Positions 30,496 to 61,997 of a stretch of 64,000 bases of DNA are shown here, piece after piece (positions within the stretch are counted from its first letter, which is position 1; every line of letters starts with the position of its first letter). A program made the translations under genes and the position numbers. The notes below the pieces were generated by a model. The model was not told the origin of the DNA. It saw only the letters and a program-made list of their open reading frames with translations, and ran no database searches. The stretch is taken from positions 10,461,873-10,525,872 of the forward strand of contig NC_135222.1 in NCBI RefSeq assembly GCF_052324685.1. The letters are read 5' to 3'. The DNA comes from Brachyhypopomus gauderio (Eukaryota; Chordata; Actinopteri; Gymnotiformes; Hypopomidae).

Positions 30496-33372
30496 ATGAC
30501 AACTAATTTTGGCCTATCAAGAACTTTGCGAAGAACCGGGAGTTTTCCGTCTGCGAGAACAGTTAGAATTGTAATATTAGGACAAGCCGCAGTCGGCAAA
30601 ACAGGTAAACTGATAATTAAGCGCTAATTCTATACGCCTTTCTGAAAAGTAGTCCGACTGTATCAGAAAAAGGAAATTTGTGTTTGTGAGCGTGTGCGTG
30701 TTCTCGCTAAACCGTTTTTTTTTCTTAAGTCATAATCATTTAAATAATTTTTATTGAGTTAAACATTGGGCTGGTCTTAAGTAATGCATGATGAAGAATG
30801 TGCATTTTGCTCGACAGAAGAACAGGGCGTTTTCATGTGCAAAATGCCCCATCAGTCATAGTGCTAATACATAATTCATGTGTTTTTCTCAGCACTGGCT
30901 GTGCGATTTATCACCAAAAGATTTATCGGCGACTACGACCCAACTCTTGGTAGGTGATCTTATGGAACACGGAGCTGTAGTTTTAGGTTTTATATCGCTA
31001 TTTTCATCGACAGTTTTGAGATGTCTAGCTTGTTTCGTCGTTGTAGAGCTTGAAATGTAACTACTGACTTGGGGAACATGATAAAATGAGTGTCGCTCTT
31101 TAAACAGAGACCATCTACAGGCATGAAGTGACAATGGCGGGTGAAGCGGTTAACTTTGAGATATTGGATACTGCTGGTCAGGTAAGACAATTATAAGGCA
31201 TTACCTTAAAATGATGCAGTCTTTGTAACCGGCCCCTCACTCCCATATAATCTGTAGTCTTACACGAAGTTATAACAGACCCAGAATTGTGACTGTGCTA
31301 ATGAAATTTTATGCTACATCCATTTAGATTATTTTACTAGTTAATTATTTATTATATTGTGCTTTTTAATACATTTTGAGAATTAAAGGGTAGGAACACA
31401 TATGTATAATAGTATTGCTCAAATCCTCAGAATGTGTACATAATACAATTCTTGAAACGTACGAATGCAGTAGGTTATTTGAATCATTTTATTTAACCCT
31501 GATGAGATCCAGGCGTGGTCTACATTCTTGGGGTCCAGCTGGGTGTGGGGGACCCATTGCAATTTTTGTTAAAATAATCAGCAGATTCAGCCCAATTGCA
31601 AGTAAAATAAACAATACATATGTTAAATTAGTTTGCTCTCTTATTTATTTATTAGTTACTTTTTTATTAAAATGTAACACAATAAGGAAATCAATCATAA
31701 ATCATGCTGGCTGACAGGCTGGTCCTATGGCTAGCTGCTCACGGGCTGGTGCTAACGGAGCTGGCTGCTGCTCATCCTCCTTTTCATTATCAGTATCAGA
31801 CTCTGATATTTCAGAAATGTGATCCTGAAATTTCCTCTTCTGAATCATCATCAAAATCCTCTGTCTCTTCCAATATCAGCTGTAAGGCAGTCTGAACTGA
31901 GAATTGCTTTGCCATCTTTTATAGCATTTTTAGCATTTTTAGCATCATGTCCCCATGATTGGGTGAAACACACACAAACACACACATACACACACACACA
32001 CACACATACACACACATACATACACAAACATACAGGTCCAGAGAGGAGGGAGGGATAATGAGGGCTGAGAGAAAAGATGCTTCTTTCAGATCTCACCCCT
32101 TTGTCTCTATAGAGATTCTTCGTCCACTGTCTGACAATATGCAATCAACCCCTGATGTGACAACCATCAAAAGTGTTGATGGTTGCCCACCCTTGCATGC
32201 CAAACACCTCTGTCCTTTGTTTGTATATCCTTTAAAGTCATACAGACGACTATCAACTACCCAACCCAATGTTGATTGCCCACTTTGACTAGCCCAGGGC
32301 CCAGTGGACCCTGGACCCTGTATGTAATACAAATGTGAAGGGGGGGGGTACGGGGGGGGTGGTCATTGAAAATATTTTCTGACTTATGTTGCTCACGGAA
32401 AATGAGCCAAGGACCAATGAATCTCAGTTTGAAAAAAAAAAAATTGTAGAATTTTTTTAAGCTGATTTTTTCAAAATGGGTCCCACAGACCCTTGGACCA
32501 TATAAGGGTTAAACGAAACGCGTAATTTACGAAACACATTACTTGCCGTAGTTAAGCCATTTTAAGCCTATGATACATGAGCTTGTCTGGTCTCTTCTGG
32601 GATGATGACCTACTAACTGTTAATTAAAAAATTGTGACCCGTGGGATTTTGAAGATTTATTTATTTTTTTTATTTGTCTGCCGGTCAATAACTGACGTCT
32701 GTCACAATTCTCACCATATCAGTAACAGCAGTGCTACCTTGGATTAAAGTATTCATTTTGAATTCTCAATTAATTTTTTTATGACAGAAGTGTACAGACA
32801 AGTGCTTGTTTAATGATTCTGTTCTGCTCGTCTTCTACTAATAAGGAGCATAAGGGGAACTGAATTGCATCCTACGTTGTCTATAGGAGGAAGATACCCT
32901 GCTGATTGAGGAGAAAATAAAATGGGCAGATGGTTTTGTCATCGTCTACTCCGTGACGGATCGCTGCAGCTTCGATGAGGTCATGCGCCTATGTTTTTTA
33001 GTGAACCACATTCATACAGCAGGTAGCAGGAGGAACTGCCCAGAGCCTCCACCCATGATGATAGTGGCCAACAAAAAGGACCTGGAGTTTGACAGAATGG
33101 TGTCCATCCAGGATGGTGAGAGCCTGTGTCGGAGCCTAAAATTGCCTCTGCATGAAGTCTCGGTACGGGATGGGTGGGAGGAGACATCGGGGGTCTTCCA
33201 GGCACTCTATGCTGACATTGTGCAGCAGATGGACTCGTCTCCCCCTTCCTTCCGTAGACGAGCAGTCTCCAGACTGATGGAGAAGATTCCCAGAATACAC
33301 TCCAACTCGGCTCTGGGCTCAACAGGCCGCAGTTTCAGCTTCAGTTCTTTCAGAGATCTCCTTCCTGACTGA
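30496..33372 (+). CDS. RERG/RASL-type Ras-like small GTPase
   Basis: Four exons join in frame to 241 aa: 30496-30604, 30893-30949, 31108-31181, 32887-33372. The G motifs are clear: P-loop GQAAVGKT (residues 30-37), switch I with YDPTLE, DTAGQE in switch II and NKKD for guanine specificity. RFITKRFIGDYDPTLE and the IKWADGFVIVYSVTDR block resemble RERG and RASL11/12, so it is placed in that Ras subfamily, close to ras-related and estrogen-regulated growth inhibitor. The exact orthologue is not claimed. Relative to Ras, positions equivalent to Gly12 and Gly13 are both Ala, while Gln61 is kept. The C-terminus is about 40 residues longer than in RERG (basic RRRAVSRLMEKIPRIH, then a Ser/Phe-rich end) and has no CAAX box, so it is probably not prenylated. 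Intron 3 hosts a piggyBac MITE. AATAAA occurs at 33729 and 33898. Confidence 0.88.
31497..32508 (-). mobile_element. Internally deleted piggyBac element
   Basis: The 1012-bp element starts CCCTGATG and ends ATAAGGG, flanked on both sides by TTAA (31493-31496 and 32509-32512), the piggyBac target duplication. GGGGGACCCATTGC near the left end mirrors CAAAATGGGTCCCAC near the right. On the minus strand a short frame beginning MAKQFSVQTALQLILEE and running into an acidic FDDDSEEE patch matches the N-terminus of piggyBac/PGBD transposases, then stops. The catalytic core is absent. A CA array (about 31969-32034) lies inside. It sits in intron 3 of the small-GTPase gene. Confidence 0.85.
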
Positions 33373-38290: not shown

Positions 38291-38375
<85 letters not shown>

Positions 38376-41300
38376 TTCCCCCACCAAGAAAATACCATTA
38401 ACTGAACATTAACTGACTCTTGCAAGAAAATCAATAGAATGTGTTTAAAGCATGCATATGAAAAGGATCAATGACTTTTGTCCATGTGTGGACAGATCAA
38501 TTACCATTAATTAAACCTCATATTGGTTATGCATCTGCAGTTACCTTAGCTTTTGTAATCTCTGTGTCCATGGAATGCTTAGCTTTGAAGATCTTTTGCA
38601 CCTCTTGCTGGGGACTGATAGTAAATAAATGAAGATACACTTTACAAACTATCCCATGCATTACCTAAATTAGTAAAATGTGTAATAAGGAAGACATTGT
38701 GTAAATGGAAAAAGACAAAAGTAGCATAAACATTGAAAAAGCAGAAACATTCTTATTCCTGCTATATGCTACAAAATACTGAATTCAAAATGAAAACGCA
38801 AACTTACAGCAATGGTAGGGAATATCCCATTTATCTCCAGGCACGAATGAAATAAACAGTAATGAAATATTAGCACTATTACTGTTCAGTCAATCCATTA
38901 TGACTGAGATTAAATATTCTGACAAATAACCTTAAAGTAGGGGACTTAAAACATCAGGATATCTGCAGATGCACTGTATTGTAAACTAGCTTGCAACCAC
39001 TGAAATCACACTTCATATTAAATCACATGTCATATTAAATGCATTACATACCAATACATTTAAAACAAAAAACACAATCAAAAAGACAAACAGTAAAAAT
39101 CTAGTGGGCTGTGACGGCTGCTTACGCGCCAAGCTGCTTCCAGCGCTGAAAGAACTCTTGCGACGTCATCTCTGTAGGCTGGAAGAACTTGTTGAGGGTG
39201 ACAGGGAGCCTAATAGAGATATTCTGCATACTACCTCCATACCTGCAGAGTACACTTCACTTTAGATCTAGGGTTAGGGTCAATTGCTGTTAAACATATT
39301 ATCTCTCTCCCTTACCCTCCTATGACATATGCATACATAAAATATCCGTTGTGGGTCACAAGGTGTGAGCAACATTACGAAGTAGCAAACAAACACCCAC
39401 CTGAAATGAACACTCAGCACAGGTGCTTCCACAAAGTCAGACAGGCACTCAATATTGAACACCTGCTGAAGCTGGGCACCCCCGTCTACTACAGGCTCTG
39501 GAGGTTTGGTGTGAATGTTCAGCTGTGGAGGAGCCATTAAGGACACAATGGACGCAGTATTTACAAAAAAAGTGAATGGACACAGGCACAAGGAGCAAGA
39601 CCTTGGACAGTCTAATAATTAACGTGTTTGCATTGGCTGCAGTAAAGATACTGGGATAAATAAATAAATACACATATACATACACACACACACATATATG
39701 TATATATATAAAACTCTGCTCATAACACGAGCAGGTAGATAGATGGACAGCTTTACTGAAGTGACAACCTTTAATAAAGTTTTCACTAGCATCTGTGAAC
39801 CACAGATATTCTTAAACAGAGGACCGATTTCTCATAATTTAAAAACGTTTATAATTTTACTAGGGACACTTAATGGGTGGCACAGTTCTGTTAAAGAACC
39901 TTCCAAAAGGATATGAGTGTTAAGGGAATCTTGACAGACCACAGAGGCAGAGAAATTCATGAACTGTGTGGTGGTTTTGTTTCCATAGAACACGTACATG
40001 CGACCTGCAGCAAACAGGGTGAGGGTAGAGGTATTGTGTAGGTAGGGTGAGGGTAGAGGTAGGGTGGAGGTAGGGTGAGGGTAGAGGTACGGTGAGGGTA
40101 GAGGTAGTGTGGAGGTAGGGTGAGGGTAGAGGTAGGGTGGAGGTAGGGTGAGGGTAGAGGTAGGGTGGAGGTAGGGTGAGGGTACAGGTAGGGTGGAGGT
40201 AGGGTGAGGGTAGGGTGAGGGTAGAGGTAGGGTGAGGGTAGAGGTAGGGTGGAGGTAGGGTGAGGGTAGAGGTAGGGTGGAGGTAGGGTGAGGGTATAGG
40301 TAGGGTGGAGGTAGGGTGAGGGTAGAGGTAGTGTGGAGGTAGGGTGAGGGTAGAGGTAGAGTGAGGGTAGAGGTAGGTTGGAGGTAGAGTGAGGGTAGAG
40401 GTAGGGTGGAGGTAGAGGTAGTGTGGAGGTAGGGTGAGGGTAAAGGTAGGGTGAGGGTAGAGGTAGTGTGGAGGTAGGGTGAGGGTACAGGTAGGGTGGA
40501 GGTAGAGGTAGTGTGGAGGTAGGGTGAGGGTAAAGGTAGGGTGAGGGTAGAGGTAGTGTGGAGGTAGGGTGAGGTTAGAGGTAGGGTGGAGGTAGGGTGA
40601 GGGTACAGGTAGGGTGAGGGTACAGGTAGGGTGAGCGTAGAGGTAGGGTGGAGGTAGAGGTAGTGTGGAGGTAGGGTGAGGGTAGAGGTAGGGTGGAGGT
40701 AGGGTGAGGGTAGAGGTATTGTGTAGGTAGGGTGAGGGTAGAGGTAGGGTGGAGGTAGTGTGAGGGTAGAGGTAGGGTGGAGGTAGGGTGAGGGTAGAGG
40801 TATTGTGTAGGTAGGGTGAGGGTAGAGGTAGGGTGGAGGTAGGGTGAGGGTAGAGGTATTGTGTAGGTAGGGTGAGGGTACAGGTAGTGTGGAGGTAGGG
40901 TGAGGGTAGAGGTATTGTGTAGGTAGGGTGAGGGTACAGGTAGTGTGGAGGTAGGGTGAGGGTACAGGTAGTGTGGAGGTAGGGTGAGGGTAGAGGTAGG
41001 GTGGAAGTAGGGTGAGGGTAGAGGTAGGGTGGAGGTAGGGTGAGGGTAGAGGTAGGGTGGAGGTAGGGTGAGGGTAGAGGTAGGGTGGAGGTAGGGTGAG
41101 GGTAGAGGTAGGGTGAGGGTAGAGGTAGGGTGAGGGTAGAGGTAGGGTGGAGGTAGGGTGAGGGTAGAGGTAGGGTGAGGGTAGAGGTACGGTGAGGGTA
41201 GAGGTAGTGTGGAGGTAGGGTGAGGGTAGAGGTACGGTGAGGGTAGAGGTAGTGTGGAGGTAGGGTGAGGGTAGAGGTAGGGTGAGGGTAGAGGTAGGGT

Positions 41301-44259
41301 GGAGGTAGGGTGAGGGTAGAGGTAGGGTGGAGGTAGGGTGAGGGTATAGGTAGGGTGGAAGTAGGGTGAGGGTATAGGTAGGGTGGAGGTAGGGTGAGAG
41401 TACATGGGGACACAGGAGTCTGAAATCTGCTTTAAACTCAAACACATCCAGGTCAGACAGATATTGTTGAAGAACTTACCCAAGTTCTGTCTGAACTCAG
41501 ATTTTAGGCCTATCTGTAGAAGTTGGTTCTCATATAAGACTCCGTTGTTCTTACAAACAAACCTAAAGACAGACAACTACAGCAATTAGTACAATAATCT
41601 TCTGACATGTTACTTACCTTGCAAAGCTCAAATACACAAGTGTACACTTTGTCAAAGATTAAAAAAGCCCTAAAATACACACATTTAATAAAAGAAATCC
41701 AATAAACTGACAGTGTCTTTTGAAATTGCAGGATAAAACCCAGATTGATTCTGGGCTGGCAAAAATCGAAATGTTACCCTGATATACTGCCGGGCCAACA
41801 GTGCTTGGTCACCATCATCTACATTTTCTTTGTCCATTACTGTAAGAATTAGGTGAGGTCAGGACTTCAGCAGACCTTGAGAAGTTTTCTTCAATGATGG
41901 ATGTGGAAGGTGCAACAGGAAGGCTGTCTGACAATACGTCCACCAGCAGACTGGCTGCGTTGGGGGCAGCAGGGGGGCTGACTGAGTTCAGAGCTGTGGT
42001 GTGACCCAGAAGATCTGAGGAGGGGGATGTAGCAACCTGCAAGAGGGAGGAGGAGATGAGCTACGTCATATGTAAAGGCTCCATCACGGAGGACACAAAA
42101 CAAATGCCACGTCATGCTGTTTATATGCAAACAAAAACAGAGAAGCAGTTCCACACATACAAGATATCATATAATAATATATTCATATAATAAAAGCCAA
42201 ACAATGAAAATTAAACCACACCCATTTACATCTCATGCAATTGAAATGAGTGATGGTGTGATATGAAGGTGTGGTATGATGTCACATTCAAATATTTTGT
42301 AAAATTCAGGTTAACAAACAAGAAATAGGCATTAAAAATCAAATATTAAAATGAATAATATGATGCCTTAACATATATTCTGTCTATTATGAATGTCATG
42401 AGAACTGAAGTCGACGATAAAATTCTGAGAACATGTTGATGTTGAACATGTTTTTCGAAGGTACTAAAAGTACTGTCATAGGGACTGGGGCTACAGAGGG
42501 CATCATCATAACCCCACAAATGTAGTCAGACATGAAAATGTGATGGGACAGATGAGGAAGATATCAACAACACGGAATAGCATGCCAAGAGCAACAGGTT
42601 TGTAGCAGAAAAACATGTCAAAATCATGCATCCATTTGAGTGGGATGATCACGCAATATGACAATGCCAGAATGCAAATGGTTTCACAGAGCAAAAGAAG
42701 GAAACACCTCAAACTTATCCAGAGACAAACATCCAGCTCGACACACAGAAAACACAGTGAATGAGTTTCAGTAGTTCACTTTATATCAACATATTAAAGA
42801 GTTCACATCCTGAAACATTGCCACTATTGTTGTTGTGCAATATACTATTTACTGAAACTGTAAATAGAAAATATATAAATCTGAATGCTTATGGTTCATT
42901 GGTTCATTTGATCATGTTGAAGTCAGAAGCTCAGATTCTGGTCACTTGACAATTTACTGAAATATCCAGTCCAGGGGTCCCTAAACTTTGGCTTGCAGCA
43001 ATTGGTATGCACACCAGTTTTAAAGCAGCATTATGAGGAAGCTAGAAAGCAGTTTGTCATGCAACCCAATGAAACCCACGACCACGCAGGGACCTGGAGG
43101 AAGGTGGGCGCAGGCGCTGAAGTGGGAGAGCTGTAGGCCTGCGGTGACAACGGGGAGAGGGGGTGTGTGCAGAATGGAAAAGGTAGAAATGGGGCGTGGC
43201 CTGTTGGTTGGGGGAGGGGCTGCGGCCAATAGATCACAAGCCATAGAGGGAGGCGAGTGCTGAAGAACACAAGAGAGAAAAAAGCAAAGAAGGAAAATGT
43301 GAAAAGTTCAGACTTAGAAAAGGGGGGCGAGAAGCAAAGAACATGTACCGATTATCAGAGCAAAACAACAACAACAACAAAATCCCATCAATATTTAGTT
43401 AGTAAGCCTGAGATGTGAGAGCACACCTTGACATTAGTGTTGGCGGCGGGATGACCGCTGCTCCCATTGACGTTGGCGCTGCGCTCCTTGCGAATGTCGT
43501 CTATGTCAGGCACAGCTCCAGAACCCTTCTTCTTCTTCAGCTTGGCCAGGATGGAGGACTCTCTCTCAGGGAAAGGTGGCATCTCCTCCAATACTGTGGC
43601 CTTTAGGACCACAAATCATAAAACCGACACACACAATACGCGACTTAGATTTAGTACAATGTTCTAAGAATAAGAACATTGCAGCTTCAAAGCACACCGC
43701 AGAGGCTAATCCTCTTGATAAAATCCATTTGAGGTTTTTATATCATCACAGTTTCCCACATCCAACCACTAGGATCAGTTGGAAAGAACCACCAGGGTAA
43801 AGCAGGACAAACCAGTCCCCTCTTGATGGCTCCCATTGCTGAGATTCAGGCACTCTACCATAATCCAACCCAGATCCAAACCAGAGAACTGCGTGCTAAA
43901 ATAACCTATACATGTTATATGCTGAAGTATATATGCTTATACTGGCTGTGTCATTTCTAATGTCCTGCTGAGCCGTCTCTGGGGTGGCCCCCATGGTTGG
44001 GGCAGAAGAGTCCGTGTAGACGCTGTACCAGTATGTCTGTGCTAGCGATGCTGCTGAGACGCAGGTACTCCACAGCGCGCTGCTGCAGCTCCACGTCTGC
44101 GTTGCGCAGCTGGCTGTCCGCCCGCAGCACTTCCTGGATGGTGCCCTTGGCCTCCGGGAAGAGGTTGATGAACTTGACGTAAGCGGAGAGCAGCAGCGCC
44201 CGCGTGGGCACCGAACACAGGTGGAACTTGGAATGGAGCAGGTTAAACTGTATAAGCGG

Positions 44260-44354
<95 letters not shown>

Positions 44355-50300: not shown

Positions 50301-53300
50301 CATGTTATTAACCCCATGTAGGACCAGCTGTGTTAGGACCAACAGCCCCAGCTAAATAGCGAGGTTGTTAACATTGTTAGTGGTAACAGGCTAGGAGTTT
50401 CTTGGATACCCAACAGCATGGTATTTTGTGTAAGAATATAGCCTATCATAGATTTTTATTTTTCTCCATAATCTTCCCTTCATTCCTCTATAAAAGTCAT
50501 GAATCGATGAGCCACTTGATAAAAGTTACGAGAGCAAACCTTCTTATCATAGTTAGTCAGGCTATCTACTGTTCTTTGCTACATTAGGACAAACACAGTA
50601 AAAACTATAAAACATCTACCGATTCCAATAACTGCACCCTGCACCCATAAGGCAGCTCACATGAATTAGGTTAACACCACACACATTTACCACGTGACAC
50701 ACATTACCTGACACATTTATCATTATATCATTATCTGTTTTAGCTTATTTTTTGCTTGTCTTTTCACTTATGCTTACAAATGGTTAGGATGGAGGAGGTG
50801 GGACTGAAGGGTGGGAGTGGATCTCTGTGGTGGCCACATCTGGGGCGGAGCTGTAAAATCGATCATGGCTGCTTTAAATCAAGGCTCTTATGGCACTGCA
50901 TAGTGGACCTGCCCCCTCACTCACCCTGCCACCAAGATGCGTGGCACCTCTGCTGCGAATGCTTCGGCCATTTCCCTGCTGCCCACGTTGGCGATGCAGT
51001 GCAGGGCCAGGTTCATGAAGGTGGGGTTACGACTAGACAAGTCATTCTTTATGGCGTTGTTGATGAGCCGGATCAAGTCACTGTTACTGTTCACCAGCAC
51101 AGAGATGAACAGATAACCCTGGAAAATGCCAGAGAGATCACATCCACTGGAAAGGTACAGGATACAATTATTCAGCTCAGTGTGAGAAAAAGAACATAGT
51201 TTGGCAAGATCTGAGCAAAGAACAAAAGAACAAAACAAAGCCACACACACAGGCTGAGCCGTACATGCACACGCATGCACACACTCATCTACGTGAACCT
51301 GAATGTTTCATTTTCAGTTGCCCACAAACACAAGTGCAAACATGCACAGTACCAGTGCCAGATCACTCACAATCTGTTTCTCTGTGTATTTGTTGGAGCT
51401 GAGGAGGTTGACTGCCTCCATGTGGCCAAAGTCGATGTCATGGCCCAGCAGGAAAATGAAGAGCAGCTTACAAACATATTTCTTCTTACTGTAACCATCC
51501 AGAGCCTTGTCTCCTAAAATACACCACAGCAGGGAATGTCTACTGTTAATAGGACTGGACTATATTTATGGGCAAAATTTATATCACTATATATTAATTA
51601 ATTTCAGTCAATAAAATATATCGATATGAACAATATAAAAGCCATAGAAAACTGCCAAGAATGCCCACAATGGATGTTTGTCCTTACAAATGTCTGGAAA
51701 ATGAATGTCAAGTATATGAAGTATCCTCCTATAAAATATTTACTTTAGAAATAAAAATTTATTTGTAATCAGCCTTCATAAATGAACATGAAGCCCGACA
51801 TTGCAGTTGAATAGACAAATTCGTCGGCTTTGTCAATATTAATATCTTCAATAGCCGAACCATTTCCACACCACAGAATTAGTGTTTCCCAGGTGTCAAG
51901 TAATGAAGTACAAATACTTCATTACCTTACTTCAGTAAAGTATAGATACCCAAAATTTCTACTGAAGTAATTATTTTTCATCCGACATTTTATTTCTACT
52001 CATTACATTTTTGCACAATTATCTGTATTTTCTACTCCTTACATTTTAGAAATAGCCTCGTTACTCCCATTTTATTTTGGCTTGTTCTGAGTCTGGCTTG
52101 TCATCATTAAAAAGGAGCTCCGTTGTAGGTTTTTGAAATTTTTGTCTCGTCATCTGTGTATTTGTCATCATGGTAATAAATGTTTTGTATCGTGTACCAC
52201 TCCCTCGCTGCCCCTCCCTCACCACCGTGACTATTTGGTTTTAACAAAGTTGCATTTTACTAAAATGCATTCGTTTTAAAGGGCATGTATGTGGCTGAAA
52301 TAGTTAGCCTAGTGAATCCTTATTTTTTAACATTGACATTTTAAAATAACATTAGTCTTTATGGCTTTTAGAAAAATGTTTTTTTGGGGGGAGGTGGGGT
52401 AGTGCCCTATAGGCCATGTGACGCGGCCTACGGTTTTGTCCTTATAATGAAGTGAAAGATGGCGTTCTGAAGGAGATTAAAGACATCTCATTTTACTCTG
52501 CCACTTCAGTTATGTGGTCAAGCTCAAATATGACCCTATACATGAGCTTTACAATACATTACATTACTGCAAACTTGTGTAATTGTATTATTATGCTACT
52601 TTATTATTATTGTGGCACATTGTCTTAAAGCTCCTTTGGGGAAGCAAGAAGCAAGAAGAAGCCCAGAAGCAAGAAAAAATTCTATAAATTTAAAATGACA
52701 ATATTATCGTTTATCGCAATAATTTCTGGGACAATATATCATTCTGAAAATTTTGTTATCGTGACAGGCCTAGGTCGAGAAGAAACTAGTGACTTTGAAG
52801 ATCAGCTGGCCCACTATGAGCACCACAGCCCACAATTGTATACAGATACAATGTGTTCTGTTGAAAGCATAATCCCAAATAAACAGTGAACTGAATTAAG
52901 ATTAACTGAATTGGAAGTTAAATTGAACAAAGGTTAAACTAATAGAGAGGAGTCCAGACAGGAAGCAGAGATCCACAACTCCACAAGGAACAAGCAAGCT
53001 AGACAGCTCTTTGGTTGGTGTACTAAGAACATGGGCTTTTACTGCTAATGTGGCAGAACTGAAAACAGGGCAGTCATGGCCTGGTGGTTAGGGAACTGGT
53101 CTTGTGACAGGAGGGTCCCGGGTTTGATCCCCAGACCTGAGGCCATGACTGAGGTGCCCCTGAGCAAGGCCCTTAACCCTCAATTGTATAAAAATGAGAT
53201 AAAAATGTAAGTCGCTCTGGATAAGGGTGTCTGCCAAATGCCGTAAATATAAATGTAAATGTAAAACAGACATGGAACAGAATTACATAACACAGGGGAA

Positions 53301-56300: not shown

Positions 56301-59300
56301 CGCGCAACTCATTTGGGATGTAGATTTGACTTATTACTGCCTCTGTTATTACCTTTTGGGAAGAAAAAATATCGAGATATATATCGTATATCGCCATTCA
56401 GCTAAAAAATATCGAGATATTATTTTTGCTCCATATTGCCCAGCCTTACTCCGCGCCTCAAGTATGACTCGTCTTGAGCCTCCATCATCCAGGACACATG
56501 GGAGACAAGCATCCAGACTTTTCTCTGTTCTGGCTCCAAGGTGGTGGTATGAACTTCCCTTGAGTGTCTGAACATCGGAGTCACTTGCTGTCTTCAGACG
56601 CTGACTGACGTAATTATGCTTCGTCTATTGTGCTTTATCGTCTCTTTCCTCAGGTGTTTGTTACAGGTATTGCTTACTGTCTTTTTCTCAGATATTGTGC
56701 ATAATTGGGTTATAGGAATTGCTTACTGTCTTTTTCCTCAGGTGATGTGTATATTCAGGTATAATAATGACTTGGCATAATTGTTAGGTATTATGACTTT
56801 CGTCTAGTGGTTTTTCCAGCTTGGAGTACCTTGTGTTCAGGACTATCTATACTACCTTGGAGATTCCAAGCAACTATGTAGCACTTTTGTAAGTCACTCT
56901 GGATAAGAGCGTCTGCTAAATGCCATAAATGTAAATAAGGTTTCCAGAGAAACAGGGTGTTGTGGACTAGGGTTGGGCGATGTCTCCTTAATTGGCAGAT
57001 GACGATGTTTATAGTGAAACATCGCGATGGACGATGATATCGTTGGGGGGGGGGGGGGGGGGCTACAATTTAAAAACAATGATTATAAAATAAAAGTAGT
57101 ATAAAATAAGCTATATGGTGATAATTCTAAAAAGCGCCCCGTTTTCGGTGCGAACCGGTATACCGCCCAGCACTAAGTTAGCGCGTTTCGGGAAGTCATG
57201 CTTTCTGTTTGTTTTATATTTTTCTTGCTCTTATTATATTTTCATTCATTATTCTTTCCTTTGTTTGTTGTTCTGCTGTGATATAGTGAAATCCATGATG
57301 ATTTATTTTAAAGCTTTTTCAAAAAAAGGTAAATTCCCTAGCCATTCATAAGCTCTGTCACTTCGTTTTGTTGTTCAACTTTTAATAAACGTGTTTACAA
57401 ACACATTCATGTCTATTGTTTTTTGTAGCCTTTGCACTGCAAAATGAATGCTTTCGCTGAAGTTGAACGTCATACTTGACAATGAGCAAGTTTCCCGACG
57501 CACAATGAGCAGGCTTATTCTATTAGCGTGAATAACATGAAATGTTTAAAATTAATACAGACATGTAAAAAAAAACGAAGACAAGCTATAACCTAGATAT
57601 AAATAATATCATAATAATAATAATAGAATAATAAATAGAATAATATGCCAATTAGGCATATTTGTAGCAGTAGGGTATTTTAATTTTCATCCCTGACTCT
57701 AATTCATATAAGTTATATATAACTTATAGTCATGGTCAGTCATGGTCTGGTGGTCAGGGAACTGGTCCTGTGACCGAAGGGTCATGGGTTCAATTCCCAG
57801 GCCTGAGGATTCCCAGGCTCCCCAGGCTAGGGCTAGGACTGCCCACCGCATTATCATAAATGACAATGGACAATGATATCGTCCATTGGCACAACCCTAC
57901 TGTGGACAGAGGTTCTTAATCAGTTGTATAAGCAAAATACAAGCATTTGTTTCATTGAAGTTCCTACATATACCTAGGTTTTTCATTCCCTGGGACATTT
58001 ACATGCTACAGTATGAATTAGCATTTAACCACACCACTTAGGATGTAAAAATAGGATCTTAAATATTAGTGTCACCATTAATTTGTGTGGACTGTTGGAC
58101 TGCATTTTATAGGCCTACATTTAATCATCTCTGACACGGTCAACACAGTAGTGCTTACACAGAATTTTTTTAGTTTAAGAGTTTTATATTTATATTTTGC
58201 ATTAAACAATACATCATGCACTTAGACAACTTCCACAATGATTACCATGATTAACAATTTGTTTCAGTGACAACACCAATTAGTAGAAATTTGCCTTCTC
58301 ACAGTGCCTTGTAACAATGCTCACCAGGATACATACATTTCTGAAGCTACTTGATCAGATACATACATTACCGATGTGACATGTAGCCTATTTCCTGAAC
58401 TGCTATTGACACTTGTTCCATGCAACTCTTGTTTACAAATCTCACACAGGGTCACGTGTGATTATCAAAAGTGAATAATTTTCATTTAAGAATTATTGCA
58501 AGACTAAATACGACGCAGATGTAAATAACCAACCTAACTGTACAAAGATAAAGATGATGGGTTTTTTTCCAGTAAAAGTGGTGTTCAGATGTAATGCTTG
58601 ACATCATGTTCTGTTCATGTTTCTTGCGTAATGCGAGCATGATCATCTGACATTTACGACAGGGACAGTTAGAAATACAACCCTTAGACTATCTCAAGCT
58701 GACCACCTAGTCTAGCCACGGAACAGCATGGCTAGCGATGTGGTCTTACAGGTGCTGGTCATAAAATTTGAATATTATGAAAGGGGTGATTTATTTCAGT
58801 AATTCCATTCAAAAAGTGAAACTTGTATATTATACTCATTCATTACACACAGACTGATATTAAGTGTTTAGCTATTTTTTTAATTTGATTATTATAACTA
58901 ATGAAAACTCCAAATTCAGTAGCTATCTAGAATATTGTGGAAAAGGTTCAATACTGAAGACACCTGGTGCCACAATCTAAACAGCCAATTAGGGCTGCGA
59001 ATCTTTGGGAATCCCACGATTCGATTCAGAATCGATTCTTGAGGTCACGATTCGATTTTTTCCCTATTCTTTCAGATCCCTTCGATTCAAAAACGATTAT
59101 TTTCCGATTCAAAAACGATTCTCAATTCAAAACAAGCTGCTCTGCTGGCATGAAAGCAGAGTACATTTATAAAGATATTATAATTGTAAAAGTTTTATCA
59201 ACATATTGCAATAATGTAAACACACAAAAGTAAATCCAAGACAACATGTCTGTTTGAGGCTGACACTCAGAATACTACATTAAACTAATAAAACTGTAGC

Positions 59301-61997
59301 AACATAAATAAAATTGGTAGGCTTAGGCTAGCTGCCAGAACTGGCCACTACTCAAAAATTTTATTATACAAAAATAAACAACAAATTGCTTTGTACAAGA
59401 ATTAGGCTAGCTGCCTATTTCTGAGAACATGCCACTTCCAGAAACAAAATTACACGTTTTTCCTTAACAAATCACAAAAATTAAAAATATATGAAAGTGC
59501 TTCCAAAAATAAAAGTGCTGTTACATTAATAAAATGGGTAGGCTTACTTTAGCTGCTAGAACTTCCACGTCACAGATGAAAAATATGTATATATACCGTA
59601 TTTTCTAAAAGCCGCATATATCTATTGAACTGAATACATTTAACTGAACTAATCAGTTTCTGAACGGTGTCTGTAGCATTTCATGTGCGATAGTGTTGTG
59701 GCGAATTCCGACTCCCCTCGTTTATCCGCATAAAGATGCTACAGATTATATTGTCGATTTATGTTTCTATGCATAAATAAGAGCTAGACTTTAGCTAATT
59801 ATCCATCACAGCAAACGGCATTATCTATGTCCAAAGCCACACTGGCTCAAGAGTGTTAATTATTTTAAATAAAATACACACTGGCTATAACGAAGTTCAC
59901 CTCTGACCACGACTTCGCAGTATTACAGCAGTATTATGTCTAAATATCTAGTTAGGACAAAGCTAGAGTGCTCAATGAACTAAGTTATTTTTATTTTAAC
60001 TTTATTGTACCAGGAGTTATAATCACTGTAACTCCCGAATATCATCTGTAGCGTCTTTATGCGTGTGCAAACGATCAAGCCCATTCTAACCCGGGTCGGG
60101 TTGACGGTAAAATCTAAAATGTTTCCAAATGGTTGCTTTCAAAGACCGCGGAGACGTTTGGACTTCATACTTTTAGCGGCGCAACAACAAATACCGTACA
60201 CTACACAACCCGCTGTAGCTTTACTAGCATGCCTGCACATAATCAAAGCTGTTGCCTTGTTTTGCCTAGCACTATGGTGGCTGAGAAGGCACACACACAC
60301 ACCCAAAAAAAATTAGATGTTTTGAAAATGAGAATCGATTCTGAATCGTTCAATGTTAGAAACGCGATTCGAGCTCGAATCGATTTTTCCTGCACCCTTA
60401 CAGCCAATTAACTCAAATCACCTGCAAAGGCTTTAAAATGGTCTCTCAGTCCAAGCACACTAATAGAAAGGTGAATGGAGGAAAAGATGTGGTAGAAAAA
60501 GTGTGCAAGCAATAGGGATTACTGCACCCTGGAGAGCATTGTGAAAAAAACCATTCAAAAATGTGGGGGAGATTCACAAAGACTGGACTGCAGCTGGAAT
60601 CAGTGTTACAAGAACCCCCACATATAGACGTATGCTAGACATGGGTTTCAGCTGTCACATTCCTTGTGTCAAACCACTCTTGAACAAGGTAACAGCGTCA
60701 GAAGCATCTTGCCTGGGCTAAAGACAAAAAGAATTGGCCTGCTGCTGAGTGGTCCAAAGTTGATTAAATTAAATTTAGCATATTCTTTGGAAATCAGTAT
60801 CCCAGAGGCTGGAGGAAGAGAGGAGAGGCACAGGATGCACATTGCTTGAGGTCCAGTGTGAAGTTTCCACAGTCGGTAATGGTTTGGGGTGACAGGTCAT
60901 CTGCTGTGCTTTCTGATGTCTAAGGTCAACACAGCAGTCTTCCAGGAGGTTTTAGAGCACTTCATGCTTCCTGCTGCTGACCAACTTTATGAAGTTGGAG
61001 ATTTCATTTTCCAACATGACTTGGCACCTGCACACAGTGCCAAAGCTACAAGTACCTGGTTTAAGGACCATGGTATCCCTGTTCTTAATTGTCCAGCAAA
61101 TTCGCCTGACCATAACCCCATAGAAAATCAATGTACTGTTGTGAAGAGGAAGATTCAATACGCCAGACCCAACAATGCAGAAGAGCTTAAGGCCACTATC
61201 AGAGTAACCTGGGCTCTCATAACATCACATAACACAGACTGATCGACTCCATGCCACACTGCATTACTGCAGTAATTCAGGCAAAAGTACTGTTCATGCT
61301 CATACTTTTCAGTTGGCCAGCATTTCTAAAAATCATTTTTTGTATTGGTCTTAAGTATTCTAAATTTCTGAAATACAGAATTTTGGGTTTTCATTAGTTT
61401 TCCGTTATAATCATCAATTTAAAAGAAATACACCCTTGAAATATGTGTAAGTCACTGTGTAATGAATGAGTATAATATACAAGTTTCACTTTTTTAATGG
61501 AATTACTGAAATAAATAAACTTTTTCATGATATTCTAATTTTATGACCAGCATCTGCACTTAGCCGGCTAATGTTAACTTACATTAAGGTTCAAATCACA
61601 TCCAGCATCCAGTTAGCCACACCTATCTGATCCGCTAGCTAGCCAACTACATAACTTACTCGCACTAGTTAGTAAGCACATTTGTATTAGGGCTGTAAGA
61701 CAAATGTACTTCTCTTAGGGAATACAATAATTTGTCTAGCTAATATTTTCTCAACATTGTGCAAACAGACATAGATACACAGCTAAACGTAACAATTCAA
61801 GATAAGTTGTTAAATAATGATTTGTCTCCAGTCGCTTAAATGTATCATAAAATTAGCTAACCTAGGCTAGATAGCCAACGTTAGCTAGCTAGTTAGTTTG
61901 GAAAACAACAATTAGCCGCAAACAACTTACAGTTTCTTATGTCAGAGATAAAGACGGCAAGGCCTCGCATTCCATCGCCCTTAGAAACCGCTGGCAT
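37698..61997 (-). CDS. ap2a1: AP-2 complex subunit alpha (alpha-adaptin)
   Basis: Twenty-two coding exons join in frame to 938 aa (human AP2A2 939). Transcript order: 61997-61931, 53921-53853, 51513-51371, 51118-50925, 49947-49818, 49372-49271, 48723-48615, 47602-47452, 47282-47114, 46821-46684, 45583-45401, 45018-44921, 44260-44029, 43600-43427, 42036-41876, 41562-41480, 40004-39915, 39524-39401, 39242-39126, 38614-38545, 38272-38138, 37775-37698. Alpha-adaptin is the large AP-2 subunit that binds PI(4,5)P2, cargo and endocytic accessory proteins in clathrin endocytosis. The trunk starts [19 protein letters not shown]; the helical solenoid includes [20 protein letters not shown] and [20 protein letters not shown] Pro/Ser hinge spans exons 14-15, and the ear ends LLSEQF. 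AP2A1-like residues ([29 protein letters not shown]) favour ap2a1, though some sites match AP2A2. Introns are GT-AG except intron 17 (AT-AC). Confidence 0.93.
38294..38373. repeat. (CA)n microsatellite upstream of ap2a1 exon 21 acceptor
   Basis: About 40 CA units on + (GT on the gene's strand) end about 20 nt before the exon 21 3' splice site (ggtggtgacag|ATC at 38272). The acceptor therefore has no normal pyrimidine tract. Confidence 0.95.
39525..39914 (-). other. Putative U12-type AT-AC intron (ap2a1 intron 17)
   Basis: The intron begins ATATCCTTTT, the minor-spliceosome donor consensus, directly after AACACTC (39915). It ends CTCCAC (39525) before AGCTGAAC. A branch-point match TCCTTAAT lies at 39543-39536, its adenosines 12-13 nt from the end, as U12 introns require. 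Joining C|AG gives codon CAG and the sequence [12 protein letters not shown], aligning with human DLQPNLNLQTKP without gap. The only nearby GT donor (GAAG|GTTCTT) leaves the wrong phase. Confidence 0.9.
40017..41400. repeat. G-rich minisatellite filling ap2a1 intron 16
   Basis: About 1.38 kb of imperfect tandem repeats on + is built from two alternating modules, GAGGTAGGGTG and AGGGTAGAGGTAGGGTG, with variants such as GTAGTGTG, GTATTGTG and GTACAG. On the gene's strand it is C/T-rich (CACCCTACCTC) and free of stops in all three frames, giving a spurious Pro/Ser/Thr/Leu/Tyr frame of over 500 codons. It covers about 94% of the intron (40005-41479), ending 12 bp from the acceptor of exon 17. Closely spaced GGG runs on + could form G-quadruplexes. 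Confidence 0.97.
44262..44351. repeat. (GA)n array forming the ap2a1 exon 13 pyrimidine tract
   Basis: About 45 GA units on + read (CT)n on the gene's strand and run straight into the acceptor CTCAG|TCCG at 44260. The array is the polypyrimidine tract of intron 12. Confidence 0.95.
47279..47352. repeat. G run and GA-rich tract upstream of ap2a1 exon 9 acceptor
   Basis: On the gene's strand a run of about 18 C is followed by a C/T-rich stretch ending CCAACCCTCAG at exon 9 (47282). It serves as a long pyrimidine tract. Homopolymer length is likely uncertain. Confidence 0.85.
49450..49694. mobile_element. Fold-back MITE in ap2a1 intron 5
   Basis: The left arm (TACAACAAGGAAAATATG, then TTTGAACACCCTGCGACT) and the right arm read on the minus strand (TACAGTGAGGAAAATAAA, then TTTGAACACCCTGCAACT) are inverted copies of about 75 bp sharing GTTCTCxCACTT and GGAGGGTCTGAAAT blocks. 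TA at both outer ends fits a Tc1/mariner-type target site. The core is only about 90 bp and non-coding. The motif TATTTGAACACCCTG is widespread in fish genomes. Confidence 0.75.
51885..52100. mobile_element. hAT-type element fragment in ap2a1 intron 2
   Basis: The block CAAGTAATGAAGTACAAATA with following short inverted motifs (ACTTCAGTAAAGTA, CTACTCCTTACATTTT) is the recognisable terminal region of a non-autonomous fish hAT element. The far end was not identified. Assignment is by recognition only. Confidence 0.45.
52692..52774. mobile_element. hAT element right-terminal fragment
   Basis: The segment ends GTTATCGTGACAGGCCTA. Read on the minus strand it starts TAGGCCTGTCACGATAAC and continues with GATAAACGATAATATTGTC, typical of a hAT terminus with sub-terminal CGATA repeats. 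No matching left terminus was found nearby. Confidence 0.55.
53071..53263 (+). mobile_element. tRNA-derived SINE
   Basis: The head carries pol III promoter-like boxes: A box TGGCCTGGTGGTTAGGGA and B box GGGTTTGATCCC. The body (GAGGTGCCCCTGAGCAAGGC) and tail (GTAAGTCGCTCTGGATAAGG ... CTGCCAAATGCCGTAAAT) end in short ATGTAAAT repeats. AAAACAG occurs at both edges (about 53063 and 53265) as a probable target duplication. It lies within ap2a1 intron 1 or its edge (between exons 3 and 2), reverse to the gene. Confidence 0.85.
55175..55783 (-). mobile_element. Possible solo LTR (Gypsy-like)
   Basis: Read on the minus strand, the segment begins TGTCACGTCTGGCTCCGTCC, a typical LTR start of fish Gypsy elements. 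It runs through low-coding sequence with the three tandem units. Its 3' boundary and 5-bp target duplication were not found. It shares the opening TGTCACGTCTG with the candidate LTR at 63412. Confidence 0.35.
55465..55667. repeat. Three tandem ~60-70-bp units
   Basis: Three head-to-tail copies share CCAACTAGGA, AAAGAAACGACAATGATCCC and GGTATAGTCTGGACATA, differing by a few bases and a short spacer. They lie inside the inserted, LTR-like part of the hAT. Confidence 0.9.
56968..57899. mobile_element. hAT element carrying a SINE
   Basis: It begins TAGGGTTGGGCGATG and ends (reverse) TAGGGTTGTGCCAATGG. The flanks are TTGTGGAC and CTGTGGAC, a 7-of-8 target duplication. Sub-terminal CGATGATATCGT-like repeats occur at both ends. 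A 15-G run lies at about 57047-57061. The interior is AT-rich without a transposase frame. Confidence 0.75.
57728..57840 (+). mobile_element. Truncated tRNA-derived SINE inside the hAT
   Basis: GTCATGGTCTGGTGGTCAGG and the B-box-like GGGTTCAATTCCC match the head of the SINE at 53071. The body and tail are lost, so it is 3' truncated. Its place inside the hAT shows it inserted after the hAT or was carried along in it. Confidence 0.7.
58749..61556 (+). mobile_element. Tc1-like transposon interrupted by an hAT
   Basis: Long inverted repeats of about 120 bp (CAGGTGCTGGTCATAAAATT at the left; reversed CAGATGCTGGTCATAAAATT at the right) bracket transposase remains. After the hAT insertion the Tc1 sequence resumes at 60401. 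From about 60889 a frame encodes the transposase C-terminus: [45 protein letters not shown] and [13 protein letters not shown]. The N-terminal half is full of stops and frameshifts (around 60480-60880), and the D-to-H change beside the usual QQD block also fits decay. The left flank is TA; the right TA is lost. It is a dead element. Confidence 0.92.
58989..60400. mobile_element. hAT element nested in the Tc1
   Basis: TAGGGCTGCGAATC at the left and reversed TAAGGGTGCAGGAAAAATCG at the right form the ends. Exact 8-bp duplications CAGCCAAT occur at 58981-58988 and 60401-60408. Both ends carry dense ATCGATTC motifs, the usual sub-terminal repeats of hAT elements. No transposase is recognisable in the 1.4-kb interior, so it is non-autonomous. 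Confidence 0.92.

Follow-up and report, generated by a model that had tools for sequence, protein, structure and literature searches.

Predicted U12-type AT-AC introns share one codon position in two alpha-adaptin genes of Brachyhypopomus gauderio

The AP-2 alpha subunit (alpha-adaptin) gene of Brachyhypopomus gauderio has GT-AG terminal dinucleotides in 20 of its 21 introns, with intron 17 as the sole exception, which raises the question of which splice sites join exons 17 and 18, and which spliceosome would use them. The gene is complete within the window, i.e. the whole 64-kb stretch of DNA analysed here, and runs on the minus strand from 61997 to 37698, with 22 coding exons encoding 938 amino acids and no internal stops. 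A PDB sequence search showed homology over the full length of the product, including the appendage (ear) domain, as chain 6owt_A aligns over residues 1–938 (1820 bits) and AP-2 alpha chains make up the top 15 of the 42 PDB matches. The assignment of exons 17 and 18 to an alpha-adaptin gene in the initial annotation is confirmed by the 22-exon model. Both Alpha_adaptinC2 (PF02883, E-value 9.2e-14) and Alpha_adaptin_C (PF02296, 2.8e-46) were detected by Pfam on the 203-residue ear stretch. With regard to subtype, ten of the 15 AP-2 alpha chains carry the name alpha-2 and none carries alpha-1, which leaves this list unable to separate the two, and 72 ear residues scored 107.3 bits against the best PDB chain, close to the 104.4 bits of the paralogue on contig C2 against the same chain; an AP2A2-like label for the gene was hence dropped.

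Several introns of this gene contain repeats or fragments of mobile elements. Intron 16 (41479–40005) consists mostly of a minisatellite (window 40022–41402), which can be read as about 48 copies of a 28-nt unit or as 30 copies of a 45-nt unit, and there are perfect dinucleotide repeats of 81 bp in intron 20 (38294–38374) and of 90 bp in intron 12 (44263–44352), the latter reaching the acceptor of exon 13. Introns 2 and 1 each contain a UnaL2 LINE 3' element (53194–53247 and 56876–56929, respectively) on the plus strand, in antisense orientation; scanning the window with Rfam at gathering scores gave these two matches and no others. A DDE_3 transposase fragment (60880–61239, plus strand) is also antisense in intron 1. 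Downstream of the adaptin gene, a plus-strand open frame of 161 aa (32887–33372) matches the Ras family (profile positions 66–160), and may belong to a small GTPase gene as one of its exons.

Intron 17 spans 39525–39914 on the minus strand (390 nt, phase 1), and the initial annotation had its coordinates and letters exactly right. Exon 17 (39915–40004) encodes ear-domain sequence up to ...QDSLNT plus the first base of a Gln codon, ending in ...AACACTC at 39915, and exon 18 (39401–39524) opens at 39524 with AGCTGAACATT, which begins with the remainder of that codon. The intron thus splits codon 765 (CAG), with exonic C followed by ATATCCTTTT at the donor and TCCTTAATGGCTCCTCCAC followed by exonic AG at the acceptor, where the terminal AC is at 39526–39525; the joined exon 17–18 protein aligns without a gap to the PDB alpha-adaptin ears among the matches listed. 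The junction had been placed at the start of the ear domain, which was incorrect: the PDB appendage constructs align from residues 693–702, putting residue 765 about 65 residues inside the domain.

The branch-point consensus of U12-type introns is TCCTTRAC, and is located near the 3' end of the intron. Introns of this class have AT-AC or GT-AG termini and are expected to show no distinct polypyrimidine tract ahead of the 3' splice site. The close fit to U12-type AT-AC signals claimed initially holds at both ends of intron 17, as the donor ATATCCTTTT (+1 to +10, 39905–39914) contains a 9/9 match to ATATCCTTT and agrees with the extended donor (A/G)TATCCTT, while the branch motif TCCTTAAT (39536–39543) matches the consensus at 7/8 positions, the mismatch being a final T for C. 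Twelve intron bases (TGGCTCCTCCAC, partly pyrimidine) separate its second A (39537) from exon 18, in line with the 12–13 nt given for the branch point in the initial annotation, which had also proposed scoring the intron with U12 position matrices. When donor and branch site were scored with a simple consensus matrix built for this analysis (0.91 per consensus base) rather than a published one, intron 17 reached 23.7 bits, compared with at most 4.0 bits for the other 20 introns of the gene. The motif ATATCCTT is quoted as a U12-type donor motif in PMC2831892.

Such motifs do occur by chance in a sequence of this length. The exact nine bases of ATATCCTTT are present twice in the 127,760 positions of both strands with about one occurrence expected from composition, and the second copy (32225, plus strand) is tied to no exon seen. 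An equal or better branch motif lies in range of 121 of the 15,810 AC or AG ends in the window, and donor-acceptor pairs 60–1000 nt apart were found twice on the minus strand and not on the plus strand; 20 random sequences from a first-order model of the minus strand averaged 0.3. From these counts, the motif pair alone is weak evidence, not being rare in 64 kb. The probability of both signals being placed at this junction by chance is approximately 1e-4 for a donor within 6 nt either side multiplied by 0.008 for the acceptor, assuming independence. We rejected a chance origin because both signals lie exactly on a junction fixed by homology and reading frame, and are found again at this codon in the paralogue; it is the placement of the predicted sites on a homology-defined junction, and not the motif pair itself, that exceeds chance.

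The paralogue was identified by searching the genome (840 contigs, 796.5 Mb) for members of the family, which gave two alpha-adaptin C-terminal matches, one being the gene in the window and the other a locus on contig C2, where the matched stretch contains one stop codon when read ignoring introns. The two genes share 43 of the 72 residues flanking the intron, and the C2 gene has an AT-AC intron (C2:41237781–41237651, minus strand) at the same codon and in the same phase, with exonic C before ATATCCTTTA and exonic AG after TCCTTGACTCACCCCAC, and with the same nine-base donor ATATCCTTT. Its branch motif TCCTTGAC matches the consensus at 8/8 positions and lies 10 nt before the intron end. In contrast, the C2 intron is only 131 nt long versus 390 nt for intron 17, and there is no other significant similarity inside: BLAST gave five matches of 7–9 bases, the best of which (E = 0.14) consists of the first nine bases. 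The predicted donor, branch motif and termini are the parts kept across the paralogues, and as these signals are common to both, they point to an intron that predates the separation of the window gene from its paralogue, a timing that we infer from the comparison.

Joins of four terminus types that could compete between exons 17 and 18 were compared. Donors were taken between a point 45 nt inside the exon 17 codons and the read-through stop, and acceptors between the first base of the open exon 18 frame and a point 40 nt inside exon 18, with a minimum intron length of 50 nt. This gave 77 in-frame, stop-free joins (24 GT-AG, 5 GC-AG, 27 AT-AC and 21 AT-AG), and only two of these preserve the length of the protein: the AT-AC join at 39914–39525, and an AT-AG join with both ends two bases downstream (39912–39523). 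The initial claim that only the AT-AC reading joins the exons in phase and without a gap stands for that join, but was slightly too strong, as the shifted AT-AG join is also gap-free.

Splicing at this AT-AG pair would replace Gln with His. The PDB ears listed have Asn at the position of predicted Gln 765 and are therefore uninformative on Gln versus His, while the residue of human AP2A1 at this position is Gln, which counts against the His-giving join. The shift also makes the two leading bases of the ATATCCTT motif exonic. On the other hand, the counterpart intron in human AP2A1 is given as AT/AG in the table of PMC2603472, although AT-AG combinations appear to be disfavoured in U12-type introns according to PMC3584512, and altogether we consider this alternative very improbable.

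An ordinary GT-AG intron using another donor is less probable still, despite the 24 GT-AG joins that are in frame and stop-free, and despite a passable GT donor (AAG/GTTCTTTA) located 15 nt into intron 17 (39899). The protein length is not kept by any of the 29 in-frame GT-AG and GC-AG joins examined, and these were ruled out. Three of the 24 GT-AG joins change the length by +6 residues, all with acceptors inside exon 18, which makes it a fair statement in the initial annotation that a predictor allowing only GT-AG would insert about six extra residues or disrupt the frame; the four GT-AG joins at the true acceptor region (CAG/CTG) change the length by −10, −9, +15 and +22 residues. The donor at 39899 is out of frame with the CAG/CTG acceptor, and its four in-frame acceptors would change the protein by +34, −4, −7 and −8 residues. 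An ordinary GT-AG intron also does not fit with the paralogue having kept the AT-AC signals and not the remainder of the intron. Removal of intron 17 as an AT-AC intron by the major spliceosome is just as hard to credit, since the U2-type AT-AC introns described in PMC2831892, which exist in e.g. sodium-channel genes, have G at +5, whereas the intron 17 donor has C at +5 and the intron contains a U12-type branch motif in range.

We conclude, with a probability of about 0.96, that intron 17 is a U12-type AT-AC intron which was already present when the two alpha-adaptin genes parted and is removed by the minor spliceosome; that it is actually spliced and depends on this machinery is what we infer from sequence. 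At least one U11 snRNA locus is present in the genome (112.9 bits with a cut-off of 39, 40 of the 40,097 first-look candidates having been scored), while the U11 search gave no match in 14 control genomes. Seven consecutive pairs, G-U included, are possible between the U11 5' end AAAAAGGG and the intron 17 donor, in a register of donor +4 to +10 with U11 nucleotides 8 to 2, and six pairs are possible with the donor of the paralogue, again including G-U. In the proposed mechanism, U11 would base-pair to the donor at UCCUUUU and U12 presumably to the branch site at UCCUUAA, after which the minor spliceosome would join C to AG and so restore the Gln codon in the ear domain.

A comparable intron has been described in human. 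The intron between exons 19 and 20 of AP2A1 was picked from a U12-intron database and classed as U12-type, and its splicing was followed by RT-PCR in patient and control cells in 2008 (PMC2603472). This human intron 19 resembles intron 17 in its place in the protein and in being U12-type, and the primers given in the same source, as interpreted here, flank the position equivalent to intron 17, lying in the codons that match TQFMN of exon 17 and LNIHTK of exon 18; it differs in being tabulated as AT/AG, versus AT-AC in intron 17, which may be a genuine difference or a slip of annotation. In PMC8280824, AT-AG introns are counted among the A-type (AT-AN) minor introns, which depend on CENATAC and have AT-AC termini and U12-type signals in common with intron 17. 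The AT-AC subtype is also common within its class, as it accounts for 22% of the U12-type introns of zebrafish (PMC7367187). A search of openly licensed papers, covering their main text, turned up none describing the intron for AP2A2, and among the papers listed by a search on adaptin and minor introns, PMC2603472 was the one that could be tied to intron 17. Since the matching human intron has already been catalogued and assayed as U12-type, intron 17 is ordinary in this respect: a correct, conserved minor intron with a human counterpart in print.

Both genes have ACAG at the 3' junction (39523–39526 in the window), where AC forms the predicted intron end and AG the start of exon 18. Use of AG instead of AC with the same donor is predicted to shift the frame and lead to a stop after 24 residues in the window gene and 28 in the paralogue. 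As AC would give full alpha-adaptin and AG a truncated ear in both genes, the choice of acceptor could tune the amount of AP-2, but we think it unlikely that the minor spliceosome uses ACAG as a tandem AC/AG acceptor. If it does, the human intron would owe its AT/AG label either to splicing at the second site or to its end having slid by two bases.

As with acceptor choice, failure to remove the intron has a predicted consequence in both genes. With intron 17 retained, the frame is predicted to run on for 27 codons to a stop at 39834, which would take away most of the ear, and retention of the paralogue intron is predicted to give a stop after four residues (HILY). A gene finder restricted to GT-AG introns would misjoin the ear domain at intron 17. 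While the general picture of minor introns is left unchanged by intron 17, a minor intron was found at the same codon in both alpha-adaptin loci identified, and the supply of AP-2 may for that reason be sensitive to defects of the minor spliceosome.
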